DNA of 64,000 bases from Jonquetella anthropi DSM 22815 (GTDB lineage: Bacteria; Synergistota; Synergistia; Synergistales; Dethiosulfovibrionaceae), in NCBI RefSeq assembly GCF_000237805.1, contig NZ_CM001376.1, positions 1,044,349 to 1,108,348 on the forward strand, in the 5' to 3' direction. This document shows, one piece after another, positions 51,556 through 61,917 of this stretch. The notes under the pieces were generated by a model that was not told where the DNA came from, made no database searches, and saw only the letters and a list, made by a program, of their open reading frames with translations. Every line of letters starts with the position of its first letter. Positions within the stretch are counted from its first letter, which is position 1. The translations under genes were made by a program, and so were the position numbers.

Positions 51556-52482
51556 TTACCTCCTAGCCCCCTCTTCGGGGAACCACAGCTGGTGCAATGG
51601 GACAAACTGCACGCCGCCAAACTGCTGAGAACAGACCCACCGCAAAAACGGCAGCGTGCCGGTTCGGGCATGACAGATGGCGATTCCGACGCCACGGCTT
51701 CGAGCTATGCGAAGCGCTTTGGCGAATTGCCCTTTCATGTAGTCCAAGTCGCTGACCCCATCGATGAACGCCATATTTGCCAAGGCCGGGACGCCGTACT
51801 TGGCGACGGTGCTCCGGGCTACCGATTTGCCTGACGTCCGGCTGTCAAGGAACCCCCAGCCGGTCTGGTCGGCCATGGCGGCCCCGAAGGCTTCCATGGT
51901 GTTCTGGCTTGACGTGGCCTTGGATCCTCGGTGATTGTTCACCCCTAGAGCTCGGGGGAACAAACTGCGCATCCGTTCGACTTGACGCCGCACTTGCTCC
52001 GGTGAGCTGTCCGTCCCAATGAGGTAGTCCCGATGGCCGGCCGGATCAATGATCGCCTGCATGGGCAGGTGGACGATGTACGGCTGGCCGATTTTGTCAG
52101 CCAGATGGGCGCAGCTCAGGCTGGCCGAACAGTCCGGCATGATGGCCCATGTGAACGACCGGCTGGGACCGCCAAGGGAAGCAATTTGCTGCGCAATCGT
52201 CAGGCTGGTCCCAAAGTCGTCAATCACGAGAGCCATCAGGGCTTTGCCGCTCCGTTCTCCCGGTTCTCTGCCCGCCTCTGGCTCAACGATCGTGGGCTCA
52301 GGGCTGGGAAGGGTCCCCAAATTTTGCGGGGCTTCGCCTGAAGGAGCTTCTGCACCGCCTGAAATGACCAGCAAGGGCAGAGGCTGCTTTTGCGGCGCCG
52401 GCCGGGCCAGGGCCAAGGAAATGGAGACCAAGGCTATGACGGCAAGCAGGACAGCGCAGGCAATGAAGGTTGGGCGCCTCAT
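51556..52482 (-). CDS. Divergent polysaccharide deacetylase family protein
   Basis: 308 residues; ATG 52482 overlaps the ctpA stop (ATGA). An N-terminal signal anchor (about 7-27) is followed by a Pro/Glu-rich linker and a NodB-like deacetylase barrel of the divergent (YibQ) type: ALVIDDFGTS (metal Asp pair), IVHLPMQA and LGVNNHRGSKATSS. The family is found beside ctpA and envC in many diderms and is thought to act on envelope glycans or cell separation; the substrate is not established. The region facing the periplasm fits the neighbouring EnvC-like and CtpA proteins. Confidence 0.9.
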   Translation of the reverse strand: MRRPTFIACAVLLAVIALVSISLALARPAPQKQPLPLLVISGGAEAPSGEAPQNLGTLPSPEPTIVEPEAGREPGERSGKALMALVIDDFGTSLTIAQQIASLGGPSRSFTWAIMPDCSASLSCAHLADKIGQPYIVHLPMQAIIDPAGHRDYLIGTDSSPEQVRRQVERMRSLFPRALGVNNHRGSKATSSQNTMEAFGAAMADQTGWGFLDSRTSGKSVARSTVAKYGVPALANMAFIDGVSDLDYMKGQFAKALRIARSRGVGIAICHARTGTLPFLRWVCSQQFGGVQFVPLHQLWFPEEGARR

Positions 52483-53927
52483 TTCTTTAGGGGCGCCGGC
52501 TCCTTCGCGTCAGGCTTTTTGACCGGTTGATTTTCTGAAGTTTTCTCGGAGGACTTGGGCGCTTCCTTCCCGGCGTCAACCTGCTCGCCTGCAGCCGGCT
52601 GGACTGGCTTCGCTGGGACAATCTGTTCCCTAGTTTCGCCGGCGACAAGCCGATCGAGGATTTCTTCCGCCTTTTTAAGCTGCTGGTCCTCGCCGAGGGC
52701 TTTCAGCCACTTTCTGTCGCTTTCGGCCTTTTTCTCTTCCGGGGTCATTTCTTCCCACGCCGCCTGTTCGCGCTTACTCTCTTTCTGTTCGGCGTCCAAC
52801 TGAGAAGCGGTTTTCTCTTCCTCAGGCAGCTTATCCTCAATGTCCGGCGTCAGGCCCACGTGGTCGATCAGCTCGCCGCTTGGCGTGTAGTACCGGGCGA
52901 TGGTGACGTAGAGTCCGGCGCCGTCAGCCAAGTTGAACAGGGTCTGGACTGAGCCCTTTCCAAAGCTCTTCTCCCCCACAAGGATCGCCCGGCCGCGGTC
53001 CCGCAGGCAGCCGGAGACGATTTCCGAGGCGCTGGCGCTGCCCCCGTTGATCAGGATGACCAGCGGTTTGGACGTGAGAGTTCCGGGCGTCGCGCTGATG
53101 GAGTCGTTGGCTTTTTCAACCCGTCCTTTGGTGGAGACGATAGGGCCGTCGTCCAGGAAGAAGTCGCAGATGGCCGTCGCAGCGTCAAGCAGACCGCCGC
53201 CGTTGTTCCGCAGGTCCAGAACGTACCCTTTGACCTTTTTTCGCTCCAAGGCTTTGATGGCCTTTTTCAGGTCATCAGCCGACGTGGCGATAAACTGGCT
53301 GAGCCGCAGGTATCCCACGCGGTCGCCGACGACGGTGAATTTCACTGACGCCAGCTTGATGTTCTCGCGTATCATGCTCATTTCCAGCAGCTGGTCGACG
53401 CCTTTGCGGCGCACCCAAACTGTGACCTTTTTGCCCGCTTCACCGCGAAGCATTTTAACCACTTCGTCCAGTTTTTTGCCAACCACGTTCGTCTCGTCTA
53501 CTTTGACGATCTCGTCGTTGGTCTTGAAGCCGGCTCGGAACGCCGGCGTGTCGTCAATCGGGTTGATTGCGACGACCATGTTATCCTTTTGGGACACGAC
53601 GAGTCCGATGCCGCCGTACTCGCCTTTGATGTTCATCTCTTCCTCTTCCAGGTCCTTCGGCGTGACAAACCGGGTGTACGGGTCATTCCACGCCTGCACC
53701 ATGCCGCGGATTGCGCCGTAGACCGCGTCCTGGTCTTTGGCAGGCTTCTGGGCGCCGTCAACCTGATACGTTTCGATGATTGTGCGAACTTGTTTCATCA
53801 GCCATAGTTCCTCTGGGGTAAACGGAACTATCTGATCCCACGTGGCGCCCTGACAGGCCGCCGGGACGGCGGCCCCACAAAAGCACACAACACCCGTGAT
53901 AAAAGAACGAAGCCATTTTGAACTCAT
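52479..53927 (-). CDS. ctpA: Carboxy-terminal processing protease CtpA (S41)
   Basis: 482 residues, periplasmic. Signal peptide 1-28, then a PDZ domain (about 105-190, GGIGLVVSQKDNMVVAINPI) and the S41 catalytic domain with nucleophile Ser in GGSASASEIVSG and general-base Lys in GEKSFGKGSVQT. CtpA proteins trim envelope proteins, including peptidoglycan hydrolases and their activators. The roughly 110-residue C-terminal tail after the protease is Lys/Glu-rich and probably disordered or coiled (KRQ/E-type repeats, PVKKPDAKEPAPLKK). 11 bp after the EnvC-like gene, a conserved pairing. Confidence 0.94.
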   Translation of the reverse strand: MSSKWLRSFITGVVCFCGAAVPAACQGATWDQIVPFTPEELWLMKQVRTIIETYQVDGAQKPAKDQDAVYGAIRGMVQAWNDPYTRFVTPKDLEEEEMNIKGEYGGIGLVVSQKDNMVVAINPIDDTPAFRAGFKTNDEIVKVDETNVVGKKLDEVVKMLRGEAGKKVTVWVRRKGVDQLLEMSMIRENIKLASVKFTVVGDRVGYLRLSQFIATSADDLKKAIKALERKKVKGYVLDLRNNGGGLLDAATAICDFFLDDGPIVSTKGRVEKANDSISATPGTLTSKPLVILINGGSASASEIVSGCLRDRGRAILVGEKSFGKGSVQTLFNLADGAGLYVTIARYYTPSGELIDHVGLTPDIEDKLPEEEKTASQLDAEQKESKREQAAWEEMTPEEKKAESDRKWLKALGEDQQLKKAEEILDRLVAGETREQIVPAKPVQPAAGEQVDAGKEAPKSSEKTSENQPVKKPDAKEPAPLKK

Positions 53928-53938
53928 ATGTATCTCCT

Positions 53939-55117
53939 CTATTTAGGCAAATAGTCTACTGGATTTTTCGCCGTTCCGCCGATCCGAACTTCAAAGTGAA
54001 GGTGCGTCGCCGTGGCCACGCCGGAGCTTCCGACCCGGCCGACCGTGTTGCCGGCGCTCACTTTTGCGCCTTCCTGCACTGTGATGGCGCTCAGGTGGGC
54101 GTACACCGTCGACATTTGATTGCCGTGGTCAAGAATAACGATTTGGCCGTAGCCTCTGATCCAGCCGGCATAGAGCACAACTCCGTCGCCGGCGGCCTTA
54201 ACCGGGGTGCCTTTGGGCGCCGGCAGGTCGATGCCGGTGTGCATGCTCCGGGTTTTGAACTTGGGATGAATGCGCGGGCCAAATGGGCTGCTGATCCTGT
54301 GCGAGTCTAACGGCCAAGCCAGCTTCCCTTTGTGAACGACCGTCGGCATGGCAGGCCTGCCTTCGGTTTGACGCCGTCGGGCCTCTTCAGCCTTTTGTGC
54401 CAAAAGCCGGTCGATAGTCCTCTGCAGGGCCAGCTGGTTATTCTTGAGCTCTTCCAACGCGGCCTGATGGGCTTTCTCGTTCTGCTCCAGCTGCGCCATG
54501 ACGGACTGTTTTGCCTGGGCGTCTTTCCTCGCCTGGCTTTCTTCAGTCGCCAAGGCCTTTCTCCGTCCTTCCAGCTGCGCGCGGTTCGTTTCCAGCGCCG
54601 TTTTGTCTTCGGAGAGCTTTTTTCTTTCCGACGCCAGTTCGGTGATCATCGCTTGGTCGCTCTGGGCGATCCGTCCCAGCATGTAGGTTATCGAGCCGAG
54701 CTCAACAGCGCTGCTGGCAGAAAGCAGCAGGTTGTAGTCCGCCACTGTCCCGTACTTGTAGATTGCCACGAGCCTTTCGTTGAGCAGCTTCTGAAGCTCT
54801 TCGATCCGCCCGGTGCGTTGCACGATTTCTTGGGAAAGCCGTTTGGTCTCCTCGTCGTTTTTGCGAATCTGCAGTGAAAGAAGGTTGATTTTCTGCCGGG
54901 AGACGGCCATTTTCTGATCCAGCTGTTCGAGCTGGCCAGAATACGTTTTTTGTTGCTGTCTGACCGTTTGAATTTCGGTCTGGTGGAACTGGGTCATTCG
55001 GCTTACCCGATCCAATTCATCCTGCTGAGCTTTGATCTGACTGTCCAAGTCGGGCTCCGCCCACGCGCTCCCGGAAAGGATGAGCGCCGCAGCGGCAAAA
55101 AGCAGGCAGCGCCGCAT
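53939..55117 (-). CDS. envC: EnvC-like murein hydrolase activator (M23 domain)
   Basis: 392 residues from ATG 55117, two bases after ftsX; the longer frame covers ftsX. A signal peptide (MRRCLLFAAAALILSGSAWA) is followed by about 220 residues of coiled coil (KAQQDELDRVS to KNNQLALQRTIDRLLAQKAE) and a C-terminal LytM/M23 domain. The zinc motifs HTGIDLPAP (HxxxD) and THLHFEVRIG (HxH) are intact, so unlike E. coli EnvC, whose LytM site is degenerate, this protein may itself cleave peptidoglycan. FtsEX normally recruits and switches such proteins through the coiled coil; co-transcription with ftsEX supports that. Confidence 0.93.
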   Translation of the reverse strand: MRRCLLFAAAALILSGSAWAEPDLDSQIKAQQDELDRVSRMTQFHQTEIQTVRQQQKTYSGQLEQLDQKMAVSRQKINLLSLQIRKNDEETKRLSQEIVQRTGRIEELQKLLNERLVAIYKYGTVADYNLLLSASSAVELGSITYMLGRIAQSDQAMITELASERKKLSEDKTALETNRAQLEGRRKALATEESQARKDAQAKQSVMAQLEQNEKAHQAALEELKNNQLALQRTIDRLLAQKAEEARRRQTEGRPAMPTVVHKGKLAWPLDSHRISSPFGPRIHPKFKTRSMHTGIDLPAPKGTPVKAAGDGVVLYAGWIRGYGQIVILDHGNQMSTVYAHLSAITVQEGAKVSAGNTVGRVGSSGVATATHLHFEVRIGGTAKNPVDYLPK

Positions 55118-55119
55118 CG

Positions 55120-56004
55120 TCACAGCGGCTTCGCCGCCCGGCGGACGAACCGGTCGGCGACCAGCAGGCTGCAGAGCCAACCGAGCGCCAACCCGCCGCT
55201 CACGAGAAGGAGGACGACAGAACGAAGCCCGCTGTAATCGGGAACGAGCCCGAGAAACGGAAGGACTTCATTGATATCCGCCACAGCCGAACCGTACCCG
55301 GCAAAAAGCGCGCCGCTTGCCAGCAGACTCCCGCCGACGCCAAGCATCATGCCTTGAATGACAAAGGGAGCGACGGCGTAGGTTCGAGTCGCGCCGACAA
55401 GGAGCATGGCGGCAATTTCCCGCCGCCGTGAGTCAATAGCTATTCGGACCGTGTTGTAAAACACCAGCGCGCAGATCAGCGACGCCAACGCTACGATCGC
55501 GACGCCAACCCGAGTCGTCATGTACGACAGCCGACTGAGCCGGTCAGCTAGGCCGCCGGCGTAGATAAAGTCTGTTACTTCGCTCATCTGGGACAAACTA
55601 CGGACCACGTCAGGCACCAGACCAGCTCGGGCGACGCGCAGCTCAACGGCCCAGGGGAGCGGGTTCGCCCCGGCCATCGCTATGGCCTGAGACTGGGCGC
55701 CCAGCTTTTCTTTCAGGCGAGCCAGCCCTTCGTCAGGCGACACGACCTGCCGGGAGACGACGGCTGGCACTGAACTCATCCTCTCGCTGACCGCCGCGGC
55801 GTCCGCTTCGGAAGCGCAGAACGCCTGAACGACCAGATCGCTCTCCACTCGGCGCGCCAGAGACCGCACTGAAAGAGAGAACACAGCGCTGCAGCCGACC
55901 AGCAAGAAGAGAGCCGTCGCCGTCAGCAACGTGAGCAGACTCACGCCCCAATGGCGGCCGGTAATTCGGAAGGCGTCGCGGACGACGTATCTAAAAGTTC
56001 CCAT
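55120..56004 (-). CDS. ftsX: Cell division ABC permease FtsX
   Basis: 294 residues from ATG 56004 (GGGAGG upstream), overlapping ftsE by 14 bases. Architecture: cytosolic N-terminus, first membrane segment at about 20-40, a periplasmic domain of about 120 residues (SLARRVESDLVVQAF to TDFIYAGG), then three further membrane segments, as in FtsX. The periplasmic domain is the part that contacts EnvC-type coiled coils. The FtsX motif RIAIDSRRREIAAMLLVGAT is evident. With FtsE it relays ATP hydrolysis across the membrane to control septal peptidoglycan hydrolysis. Confidence 0.94.
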   Translation of the reverse strand: MGTFRYVVRDAFRITGRHWGVSLLTLLTATALFLLVGCSAVFSLSVRSLARRVESDLVVQAFCASEADAAAVSERMSSVPAVVSRQVVSPDEGLARLKEKLGAQSQAIAMAGANPLPWAVELRVARAGLVPDVVRSLSQMSEVTDFIYAGGLADRLSRLSYMTTRVGVAIVALASLICALVFYNTVRIAIDSRRREIAAMLLVGATRTYAVAPFVIQGMMLGVGGSLLASGALFAGYGSAVADINEVLPFLGLVPDYSGLRSVVLLLVSGGLALGWLCSLLVADRFVRRAAKPL

Positions 56005-56686
56005 CGCTGCTGTACCTCCCTTTCCGCTCGTCGCGCACCAAGCGCCCCTGGTGAAGCTCAATGACCCGGTGGCGGTACGTGTCCACCATGTCGTGGTCGT
56101 GAGTGGCCACGATCACGGTCGTGCCGGCGGCGTGTATCGACAGCATGAGCTTCATCACGTATTGGGCGGTATGCGGGTCAAGGTTGCCCGTCGGCTCGTC
56201 AGCTAAAAACAGCCGGGGACTGTTGACGATTGCCCGGGCAATGGCTACGCGCTGACGCTCGCCGCCGGAAAGCTGGTCGGGCCGCATGTCCCGCCGGTTC
56301 CACAGGCCGACCCGGTCCACGATCTCATCGGTCCTGTCCCGGATCTCTCTGAGAGGGGCGCCGCAGACTTCCAACGCGAAGGCGACGTTCTCCCACGCGG
56401 TCAGCTGGGGCAAAAGCCGGAAGTCCTGAAAGACGACTCCCACGTCGCGGCGAAAATACGGCAGATCTGAGCGGCGAATCCGCCGCAGATCCACGCCGCC
56501 GACGCAGATTCTGCCGGACGACGGCAGAACTTCCCGGGTCATCATCCGCATGAACGTCGTCTTCCCCGAACCGGTCTCACCAATGAGGTAGACGAACTCC
56601 CCTTCGTCTATTTGAACGTTCAGTTCGGAAAGAGCCCGAATATTCGGGTCAAATACCTTGCTGAGCCCAATCGCTTCGACCTGCAC
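55991..56686 (-). CDS. ftsE: Cell division ATPase FtsE
   Basis: 231 residues; GTG 56686 with GAGGAGGCGG upstream, one base after the transketolase-like C gene. Walker A GETGSGKTTF, Q-loop VVFQDFRLLP, signature LSGGERQR, Walker B LFLADEPTGNLDP and H-loop ATHDHDMVD are intact. FtsE binds FtsZ in E. coli and powers the FtsX-linked activation of cell-wall hydrolases. The operon order ftsE-ftsX-envC-ctpA-deacetylase is typical, while the upstream transketolase-like pair is not. Confidence 0.96.
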   Translation of the reverse strand: MQVEAIGLSKVFDPNIRALSELNVQIDEGEFVYLIGETGSGKTTFMRMMTREVLPSSGRICVGGVDLRRIRRSDLPYFRRDVGVVFQDFRLLPQLTAWENVAFALEVCGAPLREIRDRTDEIVDRVGLWNRRDMRPDQLSGGERQRVAIARAIVNSPRLFLADEPTGNLDPHTAQYVMKLMLSIHAAGTTVIVATHDHDMVDTYRHRVIELHQGRLVRDERKGRYSSDGNF

Positions 56687-56687
56687 T

Positions 56688-57632
56688 CTACCGCCTCCTC
56701 ATGGCCCATACTTGAACAGCCGCTGTGACGATATCCCGGCTCGATAGGCCATAGTACTCCAACAGCTCATCGCACAGGCCGGATTGTCCAGCCCGATCGC
56801 GAATCGACAGGTTCTTGGCAGGAACCGGGTAGGCGCTGCAAAGCAGCTGAGCAACCGCCTCTCCCATGCCGCCGGCCTGCCGGCCTTCTTCCACCGTAAC
56901 GACGCAGCCGGTCTTTCGGGCTGACGAAAGGATCGCGTCTTCCGGCAGGTGCGTCGGCGAGAAAACGTCCACCACGCTGGCGCCGATTCCCTGCCGCGCC
57001 AAAACTTGGGCAGCCTTCAGCGCTTCCCGGATCATCATACCACAAGCGCAAATCGTCACATCGCTCCCGTCGGTCAGGGCCATCCCGCGCCAGTTTTCCT
57101 CGTCCAACGGCAAGGGACGGGAAAGGTCCTGGGCCGGGAATGCCGACGGCAGGCGAATATATGAGGCGCCAGCGTCGCCGGACGCATGAGCCAGCAGGAA
57201 GCGGGCCGAGGGGCCGTCCGACGGCATCAGAACGGTCATGCCGGGAAGAGAGCGCATGAGCGGAATATCCTCAAGCATTTGAGACACCGCTCCTTCTGAC
57301 GAGCCAGAAAGGCCGGCGACAGTTGAGACAAGCCGGACCGACAGCCCGTTAAACGCGGAAAGAACCCGAAGGGCGCTGTACGCTTCAGCGACGAGCTCCA
57401 CCGACGGGCCGAGGCACCATACCTGCTTCCCCGCCCGGACAAGCCCAGCTGCCTGCGCGGCCAGAGCCTCAGAGGACGGAATCGCTTTCTCAGTATGAGC
57501 AGGAAGGTTCCGCTCCAGCTCGGCCGTCAGTTCCCGATCGAGGCCGCTGGAACAGAGGATCCTCATGTCCGGCGTCCGATTGGCCAGCTGAACCAGCGTC
57601 TGAGCGAGTCCCTGCCGAACTAAAACGTCCAT
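56688..57632 (-). CDS. Transketolase C-terminal subunit homologue, catalytically degenerate
   Basis: 314 residues, overlapping the N-subunit gene by 13 bases. Colinear with the C-subunit of split transketolases: a pyrimidine-binding domain (1-165) and a well conserved C-terminal domain (GSDVTICACGMMIREALKAA, KTGCVVTVEEGRQAGGMGEA). In the first domain key residues are gone: the IAEQ motif whose Glu activates thiamine diphosphate reads AIPSSEAL (50-57), the DADL position reads SSGL, and the conserved His in the THQ/SHQ motif reads VSQ (AVSQMLED, 115-122). This looks like a pseudoenzyme. An active partner role with another transketolase cannot be excluded but is unlikely. Confidence 0.88.
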   Translation of the reverse strand: MDVLVRQGLAQTLVQLANRTPDMRILCSSGLDRELTAELERNLPAHTEKAIPSSEALAAQAAGLVRAGKQVWCLGPSVELVAEAYSALRVLSAFNGLSVRLVSTVAGLSGSSEGAVSQMLEDIPLMRSLPGMTVLMPSDGPSARFLLAHASGDAGASYIRLPSAFPAQDLSRPLPLDEENWRGMALTDGSDVTICACGMMIREALKAAQVLARQGIGASVVDVFSPTHLPEDAILSSARKTGCVVTVEEGRQAGGMGEAVAQLLCSAYPVPAKNLSIRDRAGQSGLCDELLEYYGLSSRDIVTAAVQVWAMRRR

Positions 57633-58417
57633 GATATTTCCTCCTCCGGAGGCGAAGGCCGTTTTTCCAGTTCGCCGATCGCCTGCTCTCGGTCAAGCTG
57701 GGACATTGGCTTCTCAGAAAAACGGCCGGGCTGTTCGAGAAACGACACGCCTTTGCCTGAGCGGCAGCGGCAGAACAGGACTTCGGACTGAGCGGAAGAG
57801 CTGAACGCGCGCCCCATCGCCTCGAAGTCGTGGCCGTCGATTTCCCGCGTCGCCCAGCCAATCTGAGCCAGCTCGTCCGCCGTCCGGCGCGGTGCACTGT
57901 TTTCTGTGACAGTAAGGATTTTAGGCGTTTTTTCAGCGCCGCCTAAGGCCTGACACGTCTTCCAGAAGGTTTCAACCTGAAACTCTTCCGCTTTCACGAG
58001 ACAGAACACCTTCACAGGCCGGACGTTTCCGCGGAGCATGCCGTATGCCAGGGCCAAACTCAGGGAAGAGGCTCCTCCCGGCCCATCAATTCCCGGCGTG
58101 TGCCGATCGTCCGGCAGTCCTTGAAGCAGGCTGCCGAGCTTTCCCCATGACCACAGGTTCTGCCGGCCGAAAAAGCCTCGGCGAGCCAGAACAGCGTAAT
58201 AGGCCGGAACGAGCCGGTCATCGGCCATGATCAGCCGATCCCGGTCCAAAGCGCCTAAATGGACTGGATCGACGTTCAGCACTCCCCAGTACAGGGCGAC
58301 AAAAAGGTCAACCGCCGAAAGGGCTGACGCTATCCGCGCCGGCGGAAGTCCAGCGGTCATTCTCACCACGTCGCCGCGCACATCCGACGCAATTCGCTCC
58401 AGCTCAGAGGAAGTCAT
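57620..58417 (-). CDS. Transketolase N-terminal subunit homologue, catalytically degenerate
   Basis: 265 residues from ATG 58417 (AAGGAAGC upstream), overlapping csaB (ATGA). Colinear with the thiamine-diphosphate-binding subunit of split transketolases, and RLGSLLQG-type, DGHDFEAM (194-200) and SGKGVSFLEQPG segments are kept. Every cofactor or catalytic signature is lost: GHxGG reads ARIAS (27-31), SKGHA reads ADDRL (65-69), QGHP reads QGLP (99-102), STGSLGQG reads GPGGASSL, and the Mg/ThDP motif GDGE...N reads KAEE (142-145) with TEN at 171-173. So no cofactor binding is expected. Transcribed with csaB and ftsEX; role unknown. Confidence 0.88.
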   Translation of the reverse strand: MTSSELERIASDVRGDVVRMTAGLPPARIASALSAVDLFVALYWGVLNVDPVHLGALDRDRLIMADDRLVPAYYAVLARRGFFGRQNLWSWGKLGSLLQGLPDDRHTPGIDGPGGASSLSLALAYGMLRGNVRPVKVFCLVKAEEFQVETFWKTCQALGGAEKTPKILTVTENSAPRRTADELAQIGWATREIDGHDFEAMGRAFSSSAQSEVLFCRCRSGKGVSFLEQPGRFSEKPMSQLDREQAIGELEKRPSPPEEEISWTF

Positions 58418-59412
58418 CGTCCAGCTTCCTTTGTCAGCGCCTCCTGAAGGACCCGTCGCAGCGTCTCCGCCGCGCCGGCCAAAGCAGGCCGATTCTTCCA
58501 CGGAACGCACTTGGCGGGACCGCCGGACCAGACGGCCCCGCCCCACTGGCGGACAAAGCCGGCGACTTTCGGGTCGTACGAAACGGCCTGATAGTCCCGA
58601 CCGGTCAGCAGCGCCAGAGCGCCAAAGTGAAGCCTCATGCCGAAGGCCGCCTTCGCGCGGGCGAAAATCCCCGTTGGGTCGTCAACCGACGGCCGAACTA
58701 CTTCAGCTAATTGGACGTCGGCGACCAGACAGGCCTGCTCCAAGGCCCGCTTGTCTTCAGGCGCCATTGCCACGCCAATTAGGGGAAGTCCCGCTTGCTG
58801 AGCTGCCTGACCGGCCGCCGCGGCGGCACTTGCCGCCAGATCGTCGTGGCCGGGACGGACGTTTAAAAGCATCGCGCCGCCGCTGGGTTCGTCCGAGACG
58901 AGTCCAGTCAGAGCCAAGGAAAGGTCAGGGACAAGACGGCAGGCCAAGCCGAGCTGGTGACAGACTTCCACTGACTCGCTGTCCCGCACCGTCAGCAGAC
59001 TGCACCGTTTAAGCGCCCAGCGGGTCAGGGAACGGGCCAGCCCGCCTTCCAGAGGGCCGACCGACTGACCGATCGCCCAAACGCGGCAGCCGGCCAGCCG
59101 GGCCAGCGCCACAAGTCCAGCGTAGTAGAAAACCGACCGGAGACTCGTCCGATCCTGAAAAATGCCGCCGCCGGCAAAAACGAGACGCCGCGCTCCGCGC
59201 AGGGCCTTGAACAGCGACAGGACCTTCCAGCGATCAACCGTTCGAAGCCCGTACGTTTCCGCCGTTTTCTGAGGGGACGCGGACGCCGCAATCAGCTCGC
59301 TTCGACTCACGCCCGCCTGTTCAAACAGGCTGACGGTCCCAAGTAGCAGCAGCTCATCGCCTAAGTTGTCGAAGCCAAAGTACCCCGCCAGCACGGCTTC
59401 CGACTTCTTCAC
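58414..59412 (-). CDS. csaB: Polysaccharide pyruvyl transferase CsaB
   Basis: 332 residues; ATG 59412 overlaps the DUF5693-like gene by 4 bases. CsaB transfers pyruvate from phosphoenolpyruvate to a secondary cell-wall polymer, creating the ligand for SLH-domain proteins. The GT-B-like fold shows AGYFGFDNLGDELLLLGTVS at the N-terminus, FAGGGIFQDRTSLRSV, AIGQSVGPLEGG, VRDSESVEV and the C-terminal GMRLHFGALALLTG with the catalytic His region. No signal peptide. Presence in a diderm suggests that SLH proteins tether the outer membrane or S-layer to a pyruvylated polymer. Confidence 0.93.
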   Translation of the reverse strand: MKKSEAVLAGYFGFDNLGDELLLLGTVSLFEQAGVSRSELIAASASPQKTAETYGLRTVDRWKVLSLFKALRGARRLVFAGGGIFQDRTSLRSVFYYAGLVALARLAGCRVWAIGQSVGPLEGGLARSLTRWALKRCSLLTVRDSESVEVCHQLGLACRLVPDLSLALTGLVSDEPSGGAMLLNVRPGHDDLAASAAAAAGQAAQQAGLPLIGVAMAPEDKRALEQACLVADVQLAEVVRPSVDDPTGIFARAKAAFGMRLHFGALALLTGRDYQAVSYDPKVAGFVRQWGGAVWSGGPAKCVPWKNRPALAGAAETLRRVLQEALTKEAGR

Positions 59413-61325
59413 GCCCCACGCCCCCGTTCAAGTAGCCGGCGTCCCCATGTCACGCCCCAGAAAGCAGCGGCCAGCAAGACCGCTCCCAACAGGAGCCCAA
59501 GCCACCAGCCGTTGAGGTCCCGAAGGACTGTCATGAACAGCGGCGTGTGGAAGTGACAGAAGCTGTTGACCGCCGACGAAAAGGCAAGCGTGACGGCCAG
59601 CCGAAGGATCTCCCGATAGTGCCCCCACAGGCCGTTCCGCTTGAGGAAGTACCAGAACACCAGCGCCGGATACCCGACAAGGAGCTCTTTGCTCCGAGGA
59701 CGGGCCACTAAAACCGACTCAAGCCACTGACGAGCTGTCCGCTCAAAGCCGGGGACGAACGTCGTGTTGTCGCTCCTGACGACGACGACCGCCATGGCGG
59801 CCAAGACCACCACGCCCAAAAGGATCTCACCCCACAGCGGCGGACGGTTCAGGACTTCCTGCAGCGACTCGGGGTGCTCTCTGCTCTGCAGGTCAAGCAG
59901 GAGAACGAGAGCCAGCGGGAGCAGCAAGGTGAGCTTTACGCCGGAAAACGTCACCAGCCGGGAGGTGTAGGCCGACGTGGAAAAAAAGCTCGCCACAACG
60001 AGCCCGCCGACTAGGACCATGGCAAGCGCCACCAGCACGCCCCTCAGGGGAGCGCGCCACAACTCCATCGCCGTCAGGCTCGCCTCGGCGGCTAAAAGTC
60101 CTGTGACGAGACCTCCGGCCAGCCGGGCCGTTATCGGGACAAAGTAAAAGACTGCGCCCAAAAGAACCCCGGCCGCAGCCGTTTTGGCTAGGTTCAAAGG
60201 GGTTGGAACCCACTGGACGTCCACCCACCGCATGCCGTGACGCAGGACAAGGGCAACCGACAGGAGCCCCAGACCGAGCGCCGACCAGATCATCTTTCCA
60301 AAGAGCGGGAACCCCTCAGGCCATCCCCTGCCGATGCCGGCCCTCGTCAGCATCTGTCCAAGGCGCCTGATGTCTGCCGCATAGTCGTCAACTGACTGAT
60401 TCAGCCCTTTCAGCGGGTCGGGGCGCAGAACCAACAGGCGAACGGACCGCTCGACGGCAGCGCGGACCATGCGTTCGAGCATGGTCTGCCGGTCTATTCC
60501 TCTGGTAAGGACCTCTTCGTCGGTGACGCTGTGCAAACTCACCACGTTCGGCCACGCTGAGTTTACCCCAAGGGTCTCGCCTACTTGGGTTGAAAATTCA
60601 ATTTGGGCGACGAGGATCCCATACTGGCGGACAATCTTTCCCCAGTTTACGCTGGGGTAACCGGCGGCGACGTCGCCGGCTGGGGCGAGAACTCTAATGT
60701 TCTTGTATAAGCCTAAGAGAAACGACGTGCTTTCGACGAGCGACGAACTGCTCTCGCCGCCTTGAGCCGGGCGATAGATGACCGGCACGCCTTGATTGTT
60801 CAGCCAGTTCAGCATGGATAGGTCAGGAAGCACGCCAAGGGTCTGAACGGCGCTCGGCTGAAACGGCAGGACAAAATAGCTTTCCTGCCCCGCCACGACT
60901 CCCAGCCCGGAGGGAAAACGGCGTTTCAGGTAGTTCAGGCTTTCGGTCACGTCGCACGGGGCCTTCAGCCTGATGACCGTTCCGGAGTTGTGCGCCCAAG
61001 CGGCCGCGACGGGCTCCGGCGCGGACATCAGCGAAAGCAAAGAAACGCCTTCCACCGCACCCTGAGCCAGCGCCTCCCCTGTGGCCTCTGAGGCCATAAT
61101 CCCGGAAGCGCCGGCGCTCAGCAGATCGACGACCTTTTGAAACCGATCGGGCGTCCCGGCCAACCCATCCAGATGAGAGCCGTCAACGACAATAGCTGCA
61201 GATCTGACGCTTCGCTCCCAAGAGACGCGCCGCCACAGCGACGGAACGGAAAGAATTAAGGCCGCACAACAGATTACGCCGAACCAGCCAAATCTTTTCA
61301 ACAAATCTTTGACGTTAGTATTCAC
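59409..61325 (-). CDS. DUF5693-like multispanning membrane protein
   Basis: 638 residues from GTG 61325, placed by GGGAGG seven bases upstream and one base after maf. An N-terminal membrane anchor (about 9-29) precedes a 300-residue extracytoplasmic domain with a barrel-like pattern (VDGSHLDGLAG, SGTVIRLKAP, LGVVAGQESYF), then about eight membrane segments to the C-terminus. Proteins of this build, annotated DUF5693, occur next to csaB in several Firmicutes and Synergistota. No catalytic motif is recognised. Given its position it may flip, polymerise or anchor the polymer that CsaB pyruvylates; that is an inference. Confidence 0.8.
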   Translation of the reverse strand: MNTNVKDLLKRFGWFGVICCAALILSVPSLWRRVSWERSVRSAAIVVDGSHLDGLAGTPDRFQKVVDLLSAGASGIMASEATGEALAQGAVEGVSLLSLMSAPEPVAAAWAHNSGTVIRLKAPCDVTESLNYLKRRFPSGLGVVAGQESYFVLPFQPSAVQTLGVLPDLSMLNWLNNQGVPVIYRPAQGGESSSSLVESTSFLLGLYKNIRVLAPAGDVAAGYPSVNWGKIVRQYGILVAQIEFSTQVGETLGVNSAWPNVVSLHSVTDEEVLTRGIDRQTMLERMVRAAVERSVRLLVLRPDPLKGLNQSVDDYAADIRRLGQMLTRAGIGRGWPEGFPLFGKMIWSALGLGLLSVALVLRHGMRWVDVQWVPTPLNLAKTAAAGVLLGAVFYFVPITARLAGGLVTGLLAAEASLTAMELWRAPLRGVLVALAMVLVGGLVVASFFSTSAYTSRLVTFSGVKLTLLLPLALVLLLDLQSREHPESLQEVLNRPPLWGEILLGVVVLAAMAVVVVRSDNTTFVPGFERTARQWLESVLVARPRSKELLVGYPALVFWYFLKRNGLWGHYREILRLAVTLAFSSAVNSFCHFHTPLFMTVLRDLNGWWLGLLLGAVLLAAAFWGVTWGRRLLERGRGA

Positions 61326-61326
61326 T

Positions 61327-61917
61327 CTATACCTCCCACAGCTTGGACAGGCTGCCGCCCTGAAGGACGAAAAAATCAGCCAACAGAGCCATCGGCAGTC
61401 CGACAACTGTTGAGTAGTTTCCGTCTATCCTGTCAACCATCAGGGAGCCTCGGCCCTGAATGGCGTACCCGCCCGCTTTGCCTTTCGGCTCGCCGGAAGC
61501 CACGTACGCCGCGATGTCAGCCTCGGCCAGCGGCTTGACGTGGACTCTTGTTCGGTCAAGGCCGACCTGCGCCTCTCCGCGTGGGGAGATGAGCGCCAGG
61601 CCGGAGCAGACTTCGTGCCACCGGCCGGACAACCGGGAGAGCATCGCAGCGGCCTCGTCGTCGCTGTGGGGCTTTCCAAAAATTTCCCCGTCGCAGACGA
61701 CTACCGTATCGCTGCCAATAATCCAGCAGCCCGGCCAACAGGGCGCAACGCTTCGCGCCTTAGCCGCCGCCAGTCGCTGAACCAGCTGTTCAGGCGTCTC
61801 GCCTGGCAGCCGAGTCTCGTCGGCACTGGGCACGACGGCTTCGAAACTCCACCCTAACGCCCCCAGCAGTTCCCGGCGGCGCGGGCTGGACGACGCCAAT
61901 ACGACAGGCGTTTTCAC
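61327..61917 (-). CDS. maf: Maf-family nucleoside triphosphate pyrophosphatase
   Basis: 196 residues; three bases after uppP. Maf proteins are house-cleaning dTTP/UTP (or modified nucleotide) pyrophosphatases linked to septation. Signatures: LASSSPRRRELLGALGW at the N-terminus, DET in PSADETRLPGE, GSDTVVVCDGEIFGKP and the KGKAGGYAIQGRGSLMVDRI block. Length is typical. YhdE-type specificity for dTTP/UTP is likely from the canonical motif set but not proven. Confidence 0.95.
   Translation of the reverse strand: MKTPVVLASSSPRRRELLGALGWSFEAVVPSADETRLPGETPEQLVQRLAAAKARSVAPCWPGCWIIGSDTVVVCDGEIFGKPHSDDEAAAMLSRLSGRWHEVCSGLALISPRGEAQVGLDRTRVHVKPLAEADIAAYVASGEPKGKAGGYAIQGRGSLMVDRIDGNYSTVVGLPMALLADFFVLQGGSLSKLWEV

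Follow-up and report, generated by a model that had tools for sequence, protein, structure and literature searches.

The tktN-tktC gene pair that lies between csaB and ftsE in Jonquetella anthropi DSM 22815 is best explained as a transketolase (TK)-derived pseudoenzyme, a non-catalytic complex in which a face of the TKC domain docks a partner from the cell envelope or division machinery. A probability of roughly 55% is assigned to this reading. It draws on the loss of active-site residues in the pair, the distribution of that loss among relatives and a shift of sequence constraint into the TKC domain.

Genomic Context of the Pair

The window analyzed here is a 64,000-nucleotide stretch of contig NZ_CM001376.1, and all coordinates refer to it. 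Both frames are on the minus strand: tktN (57620..58417, 265 amino acids, ATG start) encodes the N-subunit, equivalent to the PP domain of a split TK-like pair, and tktC (56688..57632, 314 amino acids) encodes the C-subunit, with Pyr and TKC domains. The tight packing between csaB and ftsEX described in the first-pass annotation was confirmed. The csaB stop and tktN start overlap by 4 nucleotides, tktN and tktC overlap by 13 nucleotides, and tktC is separated from ftsE by a single nucleotide. The upstream neighbor (58414..59412, minus strand) encodes a csaB-like polysaccharide pyruvyl transferase, assigned from conserved synteny and profile matches (PF04230, 100.8 bits; TIGR03609, 208.5 bits, slightly below the cut-off of 213.1). 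Downstream on the same strand are ftsE (55991..56686), named by inspection and synteny, and then ftsX (55120..56004), a coiled-coil/M23 (LytM-type) peptidase gene (53939..55180) and a gene for an S41-type C-terminal processing peptidase (52479..53927), all named by inspection, as was a gene for a DUF5693-type membrane protein upstream of csaB (59409..61406, minus strand). The complete minus-strand run reads RNase J-like, uppP, maf, DUF5693, csaB, tktN, tktC, ftsE, ftsX, M23, S41, polysaccharide deacetylase and purA; family searches within it covered csaB, tktN and tktC, the other names resting on inspection.

The genome is a single contig of 1,675,934 bases with an estimated completeness of 99.94%. 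It encodes a separate full-length TK at C1:612829, ∼490 kb from the pair, which scores 782 bits against an NCBIfam transketolase profile (cut-off 575), and a DXS-like gene is also present. The pair is therefore not the only TK candidate of the cell. This full-length TK had been missed in the first-pass annotation, as had the relatives, described below, that retain the GDG Asp and the catalytic Glu.

Predicted Fold and Active-site Residues

In Pfam searches, tktC scored above the cut-offs for Transketolase_C (91.3 bits) and Transket_pyr (36.2 bits), and tktN reached 19.7 bits for Transketolase_N, below the cut-off of 22. An NCBIfam transketolase profile covers residues 3–253 of tktN and 5–308 of tktC, with scores far under the family cut-off. 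AlphaFold models of the window proteins have pLDDT values of 89.6 (tktN) and 91.2 (tktC), and their best PDB matches are 6yak (TM 0.83) and 6yaj (TM 0.86–0.89 over four chains), respectively. Both entries belong to the Carboxydothermus hydrogenoformans split TK, whose two chains are also ranked first by family profiles (6yak, 289 bits; 6yaj, 360 bits). Like the window pair, the C. hydrogenoformans enzyme, as described in the accessible text of PMC7661550, consists of two subunits with the same domain split; the two systems align end to end, as the first-pass annotation had proposed for real split TKs, and share the same fold. A chance or bad-frame reading of the pair is ruled out by the shared synteny, the ordinary lengths of the frames and the confidence of the models. 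On the basis of these profiles and models, the two subunits, covering PP and Pyr plus TKC, are a full-length split TK in sequence and predicted fold. The TKC domain occupies approximately residues 164–314 of tktC (56691..57143, minus strand), the approximate border being taken from the accessible text of PMC7661550, and is where the family shows the strongest constraint within the pair.

To describe the active site, a reference set of 16 cofactor and substrate positions was aligned to 6yak/6yaj, and all residue calls rest on such alignments. Eleven of the positions were picked from general knowledge of TKs, and they include the WHG His, an active-site residue of TKs. The other five (the SKGH His, the GDG Asp, an Asn, the catalytic Glu and one Phe) are named as contacts of thiamine diphosphate (ThDP) or metal in the accessible text of PMC7661550.

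The window pair keeps three of the 16 sites, one Asn and two Arg, and the other 13 are changed. The earlier statement that every cofactor and catalytic residue had been lost is accordingly almost exact, and of the three exceptions the Asn sits in a poorly aligned stretch. Among 12 paralogous split TKs, ten sites are invariant (12/12) and six vary; two of the ten, the Asn and one Arg, are kept in the window. By alignment to 6yak, Ala-143 of the N-subunit (57989..57991, minus strand) stands at the Asp of the GDG motif, for which a metal-binding role is given in the accessible text of PMC7661550. Ser-234 of the same subunit (57716..57718, minus strand) replaces the WHG His, and Ser-54 of the C-subunit (57471..57473, minus strand) is found at the catalytic Glu of the IAEQ motif, in a locally ungapped alignment. 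From the four core ThDP and metal sites (SKGH His, GDG Asp, Asn and catalytic Glu), the Asn alone is retained. The C. hydrogenoformans enzyme binds ThDP and is active according to the accessible text of PMC7661550, whereas the window member is, as far as an alignment can indicate, without a plausible ThDP site. It is almost certain that the pair does not serve as a TK in this genome.

Distribution of the Family and Loss of Sites

A search of 149 relatives, with flanking DNA fetched, yielded 89 orthologues of the csaB/ftsE type including the window, and nine added later brought the family to 98; L141 was left out because the fetched locus is a paralogue. Alignment subsets A1 and A2 held 31 rows each, chosen for diversity, and A3 and A4 held 58 and 57 rows, made up of the window plus named contigs. 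With the window excluded, the full order csaB-tktN-tktC-ftsE was present in 86 of 97 loci; in our reading L146 also has this order, once overlapping frames are allowed for. At five loci (L096, L135, L143, L145 and L149), no csaB was found upstream in the stretch read, which in L096 begins at the pair and in L143 gives only 1.8 kb of upstream sequence. Four loci (L090, L104, L142 and L273) meet the contig edge after csaB-tktN or csaB-tktN-tktC, and L274 contains tktN only. The gene that follows tktC is ftsE in all 92 family loci where it lies on the contig. L135, L143, L145 and L149 retain tktN-tktC-ftsE and show at least two M23 matches after ftsX, perhaps partly from overlapping frames.

Seven genomes from four genera (L247–L249 and L254–L257) keep both csaB and ftsE with no pair between them. 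The pair is thus dispensable in these organisms, and the spread over four genera makes several deletions probable. Absence is clean in all seven; elsewhere, frames are of normal length except at contig ends. No description of this family was found in the literature searched, much of it accessible in part, which does not prove that none exists.

The WHG His is kept in none of the 98 family N-subunits and in all 36 comparison split-TK N-subunits, so site loss is not peculiar to the window genome. At the other positions the picture is graded. The 95 complete members keep between 2 and 15 of the 16 sites: all four core sites are present in 27 members and none of the four in 11, 12 members keep 14 or 15 sites, and the two pocket Arg are nearly invariant (93/95 and 94/95). 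In the nearest genus with the pair (L069, L070, L074, L077, L081 and L092), both the GDG Asp and the Glu are still in place. Judged by sequence, therefore, the whole family has lost the WHG His, and near-total loss is confined to the window lineage and some others. The first-pass annotation had held that close orthologues with GDG and IAEQ motifs would speak against its proposal, and half of that has been observed.

Members with up to 15 of 16 sites could still bind ThDP, to judge from the residues they retain. Such members, and the retention of all four core sites in 27 of the 95, would be expected if cofactor-keeping members performed some other ThDP chemistry without the WHG His and the window were a case of late loss. 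This explanation is nevertheless unlikely. The WHG His is gone throughout, the core sites changed repeatedly while the gene stayed, the shift of constraint to TKC described below is already apparent in cofactor-keeping clades (ratios of 1.03–1.21), and the window member seems to have no ThDP site left. Altered ThDP chemistry in the cofactor-keeping relatives could, in any case, be compatible with a pseudoenzyme in the window.

Ancestry and Other Transketolases

A tree was built by a quick method from 106 rows with the 16 site columns removed, omitting 27 near-duplicate or short rows as well as rows that lacked one subunit or consisted mostly of gaps. The family forms one clade (SH-aLRT 100) beside three loci from the same phylum but outside the order (L262–L264; SH-aLRT 90). 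State changes on the tree numbered at least 12 for the GDG Asp, at least 11 for the Asn and at least 8 for the Glu, compared with one for the WHG His and none or one for the two Arg; these are counts of changes and do not prove direction. The window is on a long branch (1.72), placed beside other long branches and away from its own taxonomic family.

L262–L264 share the window's gene order, csaB-tktN-tktC-ftsE-ftsX-M23, but retain all 16 residues. Their linked pair provides the sole Transketolase_N match in two of the genomes and the sole strong one in the third. The presence of an active-type pair in the same operon suggests that the pseudoenzyme arose from an active split TK without leaving its genetic position. 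Seven pairs outside the phylum, from Bacillota and Actinomycetota, also adjoin ftsE or ftsEX and/or csaB (L204, L212, L220, L227, L231, L238 and L240) and, unlike the window, all have 16/16 residues. Two Gastranaerophilales loci (L225 and L244) have a tktC with 8/8 sites adjoining ftsE, tktC alone being seen there. Intact split TK sequences linked to ftsEX and/or csaB are thereby represented in Bacillota, Actinomycetota and Gastranaerophilales, and this linkage in other phyla suggests an old association of TK with envelope genes.

Within the order, a full-length TK was found in 43 of 44 genomes surveyed, in three of them in pieces. The one genome without it (G079) has three further split TKs with the catalytic His, Asp, Asn and Glu. 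The WHG His, the GDG Asp and the Glu are present in all 20 full-length TKs that were read. Nineteen of these 20 (L287–L306) appear to carry Lys at the second Glu of GDGEIQEG, where split TKs have Glu; the site corresponds to human E160, which belongs to a proton relay. Further split TKs occur in several genomes of the order (L156–L166 and L277–L286), nearly all with the catalytic set and, in the stretches read, outside the csaB-ftsE slot. The comparison set termed intact is imperfect, with Asn at the GDG Asp in L278 and Thr at the QGHP His in L279.

Redistribution of Sequence Constraint

In intact split TKs, TKC is the least conserved domain, with a ratio of TKC identity to the mean of PP and Pyr of 0.80–0.90 in five groups that include L262–L264. 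Conservation of TKC lies below that of the catalytic domains in L262–L264 and also, when averaged, in six other linked TKs (L238 being the exception). In the family, by contrast, the ratio is 1.03–1.41 in seven clades; in the lowest, f9, TKC and Pyr are equally conserved. Of 1459 family pairs of matched divergence, 1456 had a TKC identity above the PP/Pyr mean, compared with 48 of 473 intact pairs, the pairs being non-independent. The window showed the same excess against 86 of 86 family members.

The best control is a comparison within the same 18 genomes. Here, identities of 0.422 (PP), 0.389 (Pyr) and 0.585 (TKC) were obtained for the pair (ratio 1.44), against 0.618, 0.761 and 0.455, respectively, for the full-length TK (ratio 0.66). 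In 153 comparisons, the TKC of the pair was the more identical in 149 and its PP in none; for the window alone, the corresponding values were 15/17 and 0/17. Among 11 operon products or domains in 56 genomes, TKC was the second slowest after FtsE. Constraint has moved to the TKC domain in the family, and it is highly probable that function was kept and moved with it.

Ratios of dN/dS were calculated by NG86 for 26 genome pairs, from which two near-identical pairs and four with saturation in one or more genes were excluded. Among the 20 usable pairs, tktC was below csaB in 20 and tktN at or below csaB in 17. In degenerate lineages, which keep 2–5 of the 16 sites (L097/L116, L111/L116, L140/L148, L150/L152 and L153/L154), values for tktC were 0.05–0.19. 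For tktN they were 0.10 in two pairs and 0.15–0.23, above csaB, in three. The two lower pairs were L140/L148 (tktN 0.10, tktC 0.084) and L153/L154 (tktN 0.10, tktC 0.087). The window genus is represented by one genome, so these values come from relatives. Homology to an active enzyme and catalytic loss are thus accompanied by purifying selection in relatives and, in the window lineage, indirectly by TKC conservation. The idea that the pair had been selected for a non-enzymatic role is well supported, on grounds that were not available to the first-pass annotation: no family member has the WHG His, dN/dS is low outside the window lineage, and constraint has shifted to TKC.

New residues have become nearly fixed in the family relative to L262–L264. 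In the N-subunit these are R19, R106, D111 and C139; in the C-subunit they are C195, C197, Q214, R240, C243, C244, W309, [ML]311 and R312–R314. C197 is also frequent in other split TKs (17/38), and the window retains most of the set but is without R106, R240 and C244. Five candidates (V40, R85 and W89 of the N-subunit, and E219 and P230 of the C-subunit) were rejected as gains, being common to L262–L264; C223 was found in one of the three. Five TKC cysteines (C195, C197, C223, C243 and C244) are each present in 82 to 91 of 95 members, and the window has three of them.

The C-subunit ends in the tail W309-A-M-R-R-R314 (56691..56708, minus strand). Among the 95 members, R312 and R313 are each found in 93, R314 in 91 and W309 in 87, and the subunit ends exactly in RRR in 87, compared with none of 38 comparison split TKs. 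The last helix, which spans residues 298–313 in the window tktC model, is more hydrophobic in the family than in intact TKs (+0.27 versus −0.06; 93 and 37 rows) and less amphipathic (0.33 versus 0.50; same rows), as though the outer side of the helix had become buried.

These observations bear on a simple alternative, the slow decay of an enzyme made redundant by the full-length TK, with the window copy near the end of its loss. Several features would fit such a course: the pair is missing in seven genomes, a full-length TK is nearly universal in the order, the active-site columns fall under average conservation in two degenerate clades, and in the window lineage tktN and tktC have diverged faster (1.43-fold and 1.23-fold) than eight operon neighbors (0.92–1.21-fold). 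Plain decay is unlikely, however, when set against the normal frame lengths, the low dN/dS of degenerate lineages such as L140/L148 and L153/L154, a TKC that outperforms that of the full-length TK in the same genomes (in the window as elsewhere) and a set of nearly fixed new residues.

Distances within the operon point to continued association of the two subunits. The partial correlation between PP and Pyr was +0.64, the highest of 55, consistent with N and C persisting as a TK-like body. For TKC, the values were +0.30 with M23, +0.29 with csaB, +0.18 with S41 and +0.14 with FtsE, and no single partner stands out.

There are enzyme families in which an inactive paralogue regulates an active one. 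As a regulator of this prozyme type, the pair could bind and tune the full-length TK or another ThDP enzyme, and the coexistence of full-length TK and pair in one genome, like the predicted fold and the PP-Pyr covariation, would be in keeping with this. Such a role is nonetheless distinctly improbable: PP and Pyr, between which the shared active site of TKs is formed, are the domains under least constraint and TKC the one under most, and the pair is linked to envelope genes while the full-length TK is encoded far away.

The metabolite sensor offered in the first-pass annotation, in which the old active site would bind a sugar phosphate or other ligand and signal to the envelope operon, is very improbable, for although the two pocket Arg persist and one clade has fixed a few replacements (Pro reaches 0.94 at the SGH site and Leu 0.81 at the QGHP site), the peak of conservation lies in TKC and the active-site columns of the two degenerate clades examined average 0.41–0.69 against 0.63–0.73 for all columns, subunit by subunit, so that a scaffold, the other role it had named, fits better.

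Discussion

The data are most readily accommodated by a TK-derived pseudoenzyme that acts through its TKC domain. The ancestor would have been an active split TK in a csaB-ftsEX operon, where a sister lineage outside the order retains it. In Synergistales, with a separate housekeeping TK available, the WHG His of the operon copy would have gone first, in the simplest case through a single event, and the residues for ThDP, metal and substrate would have followed lineage by lineage. A transfer of function to the TKC domain would account for the retention of the copy. The N- and C-subunits would still assemble as an α2β2 body, and a partner would dock on the face of TKC that carries the more apolar last helix and the W-x-[ML]-RRR tail. 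The fast evolution and long branch of the window copy make a late stage of loss possible in its lineage.

That this partner belongs to the envelope group of the operon has close to, but not quite, an even chance of being correct. Among the products of the same gene run, FtsE and the rest of the FtsEX/CsaB envelope group would be the likeliest candidates, with FtsE favored because its linkage is the most persistent. Gene order is what suggests a link between the pair and FtsEX or CsaB activity, and both neighbors are kept in the seven genomes that have no pair. The course of events may be specified further, though only tentatively, as the conversion of a TK in place to a cytosolic docking subunit, by one loss of the WHG His and then many independent losses of cofactor sites, with a slowed TKC whose apolar helix and W-x-[ML]-RRR end bind FtsE, another envelope partner or the inner face of the membrane.

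A TKC docking platform has a precedent in pyruvate dehydrogenase E1-β (PDB 1w85), which has the same Pyr-TKC domain order as tktC; in that system, the TKC-containing subunit docks the binding domain of E2. E1-β is an active enzyme in a known complex, whereas a partner of the window pair is proposed from its sequence and setting. Details of the E1-β contact are not given in the accessible text on pyruvate dehydrogenase/E2 docking (PMC9681731).

A second comparison is provided by human TKTL1, for which a model protein showed neither specific ThDP binding nor TK activity according to the accessible text of PMC3485151. TKTL1 is a single chain with a 38-residue deletion in its N-terminal domain, whereas the window family has substitutions in both subunits. 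No deletion of the TKTL1 type was found, as the family profile aligns to residues 4–276 of the 280 of 6yak and the window tktN model aligns with 6yak over 273 columns. Moreover, loss in the family occurred many times over, in a bacterial split TK inside an envelope operon. Relative to the C. hydrogenoformans enzyme, the family TKC has in addition acquired its new, nearly fixed residues and tail.

Annotation of the pair as a transketolase would mislead metabolic models. The pair instead points to an uncharacterized component in the cytosol, close to FtsEX and CsaB, in a phylum that has received little study. One lineage holds an intact enzyme in this genetic slot, and the next holds graded dead relatives and clean gene absences. 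If the conversion outlined above is correct, the family would display the stages of a change from enzyme to scaffold, since the one slot is occupied by active, half-dead or dead members, and such a graded series would make the order of events in the conversion testable.
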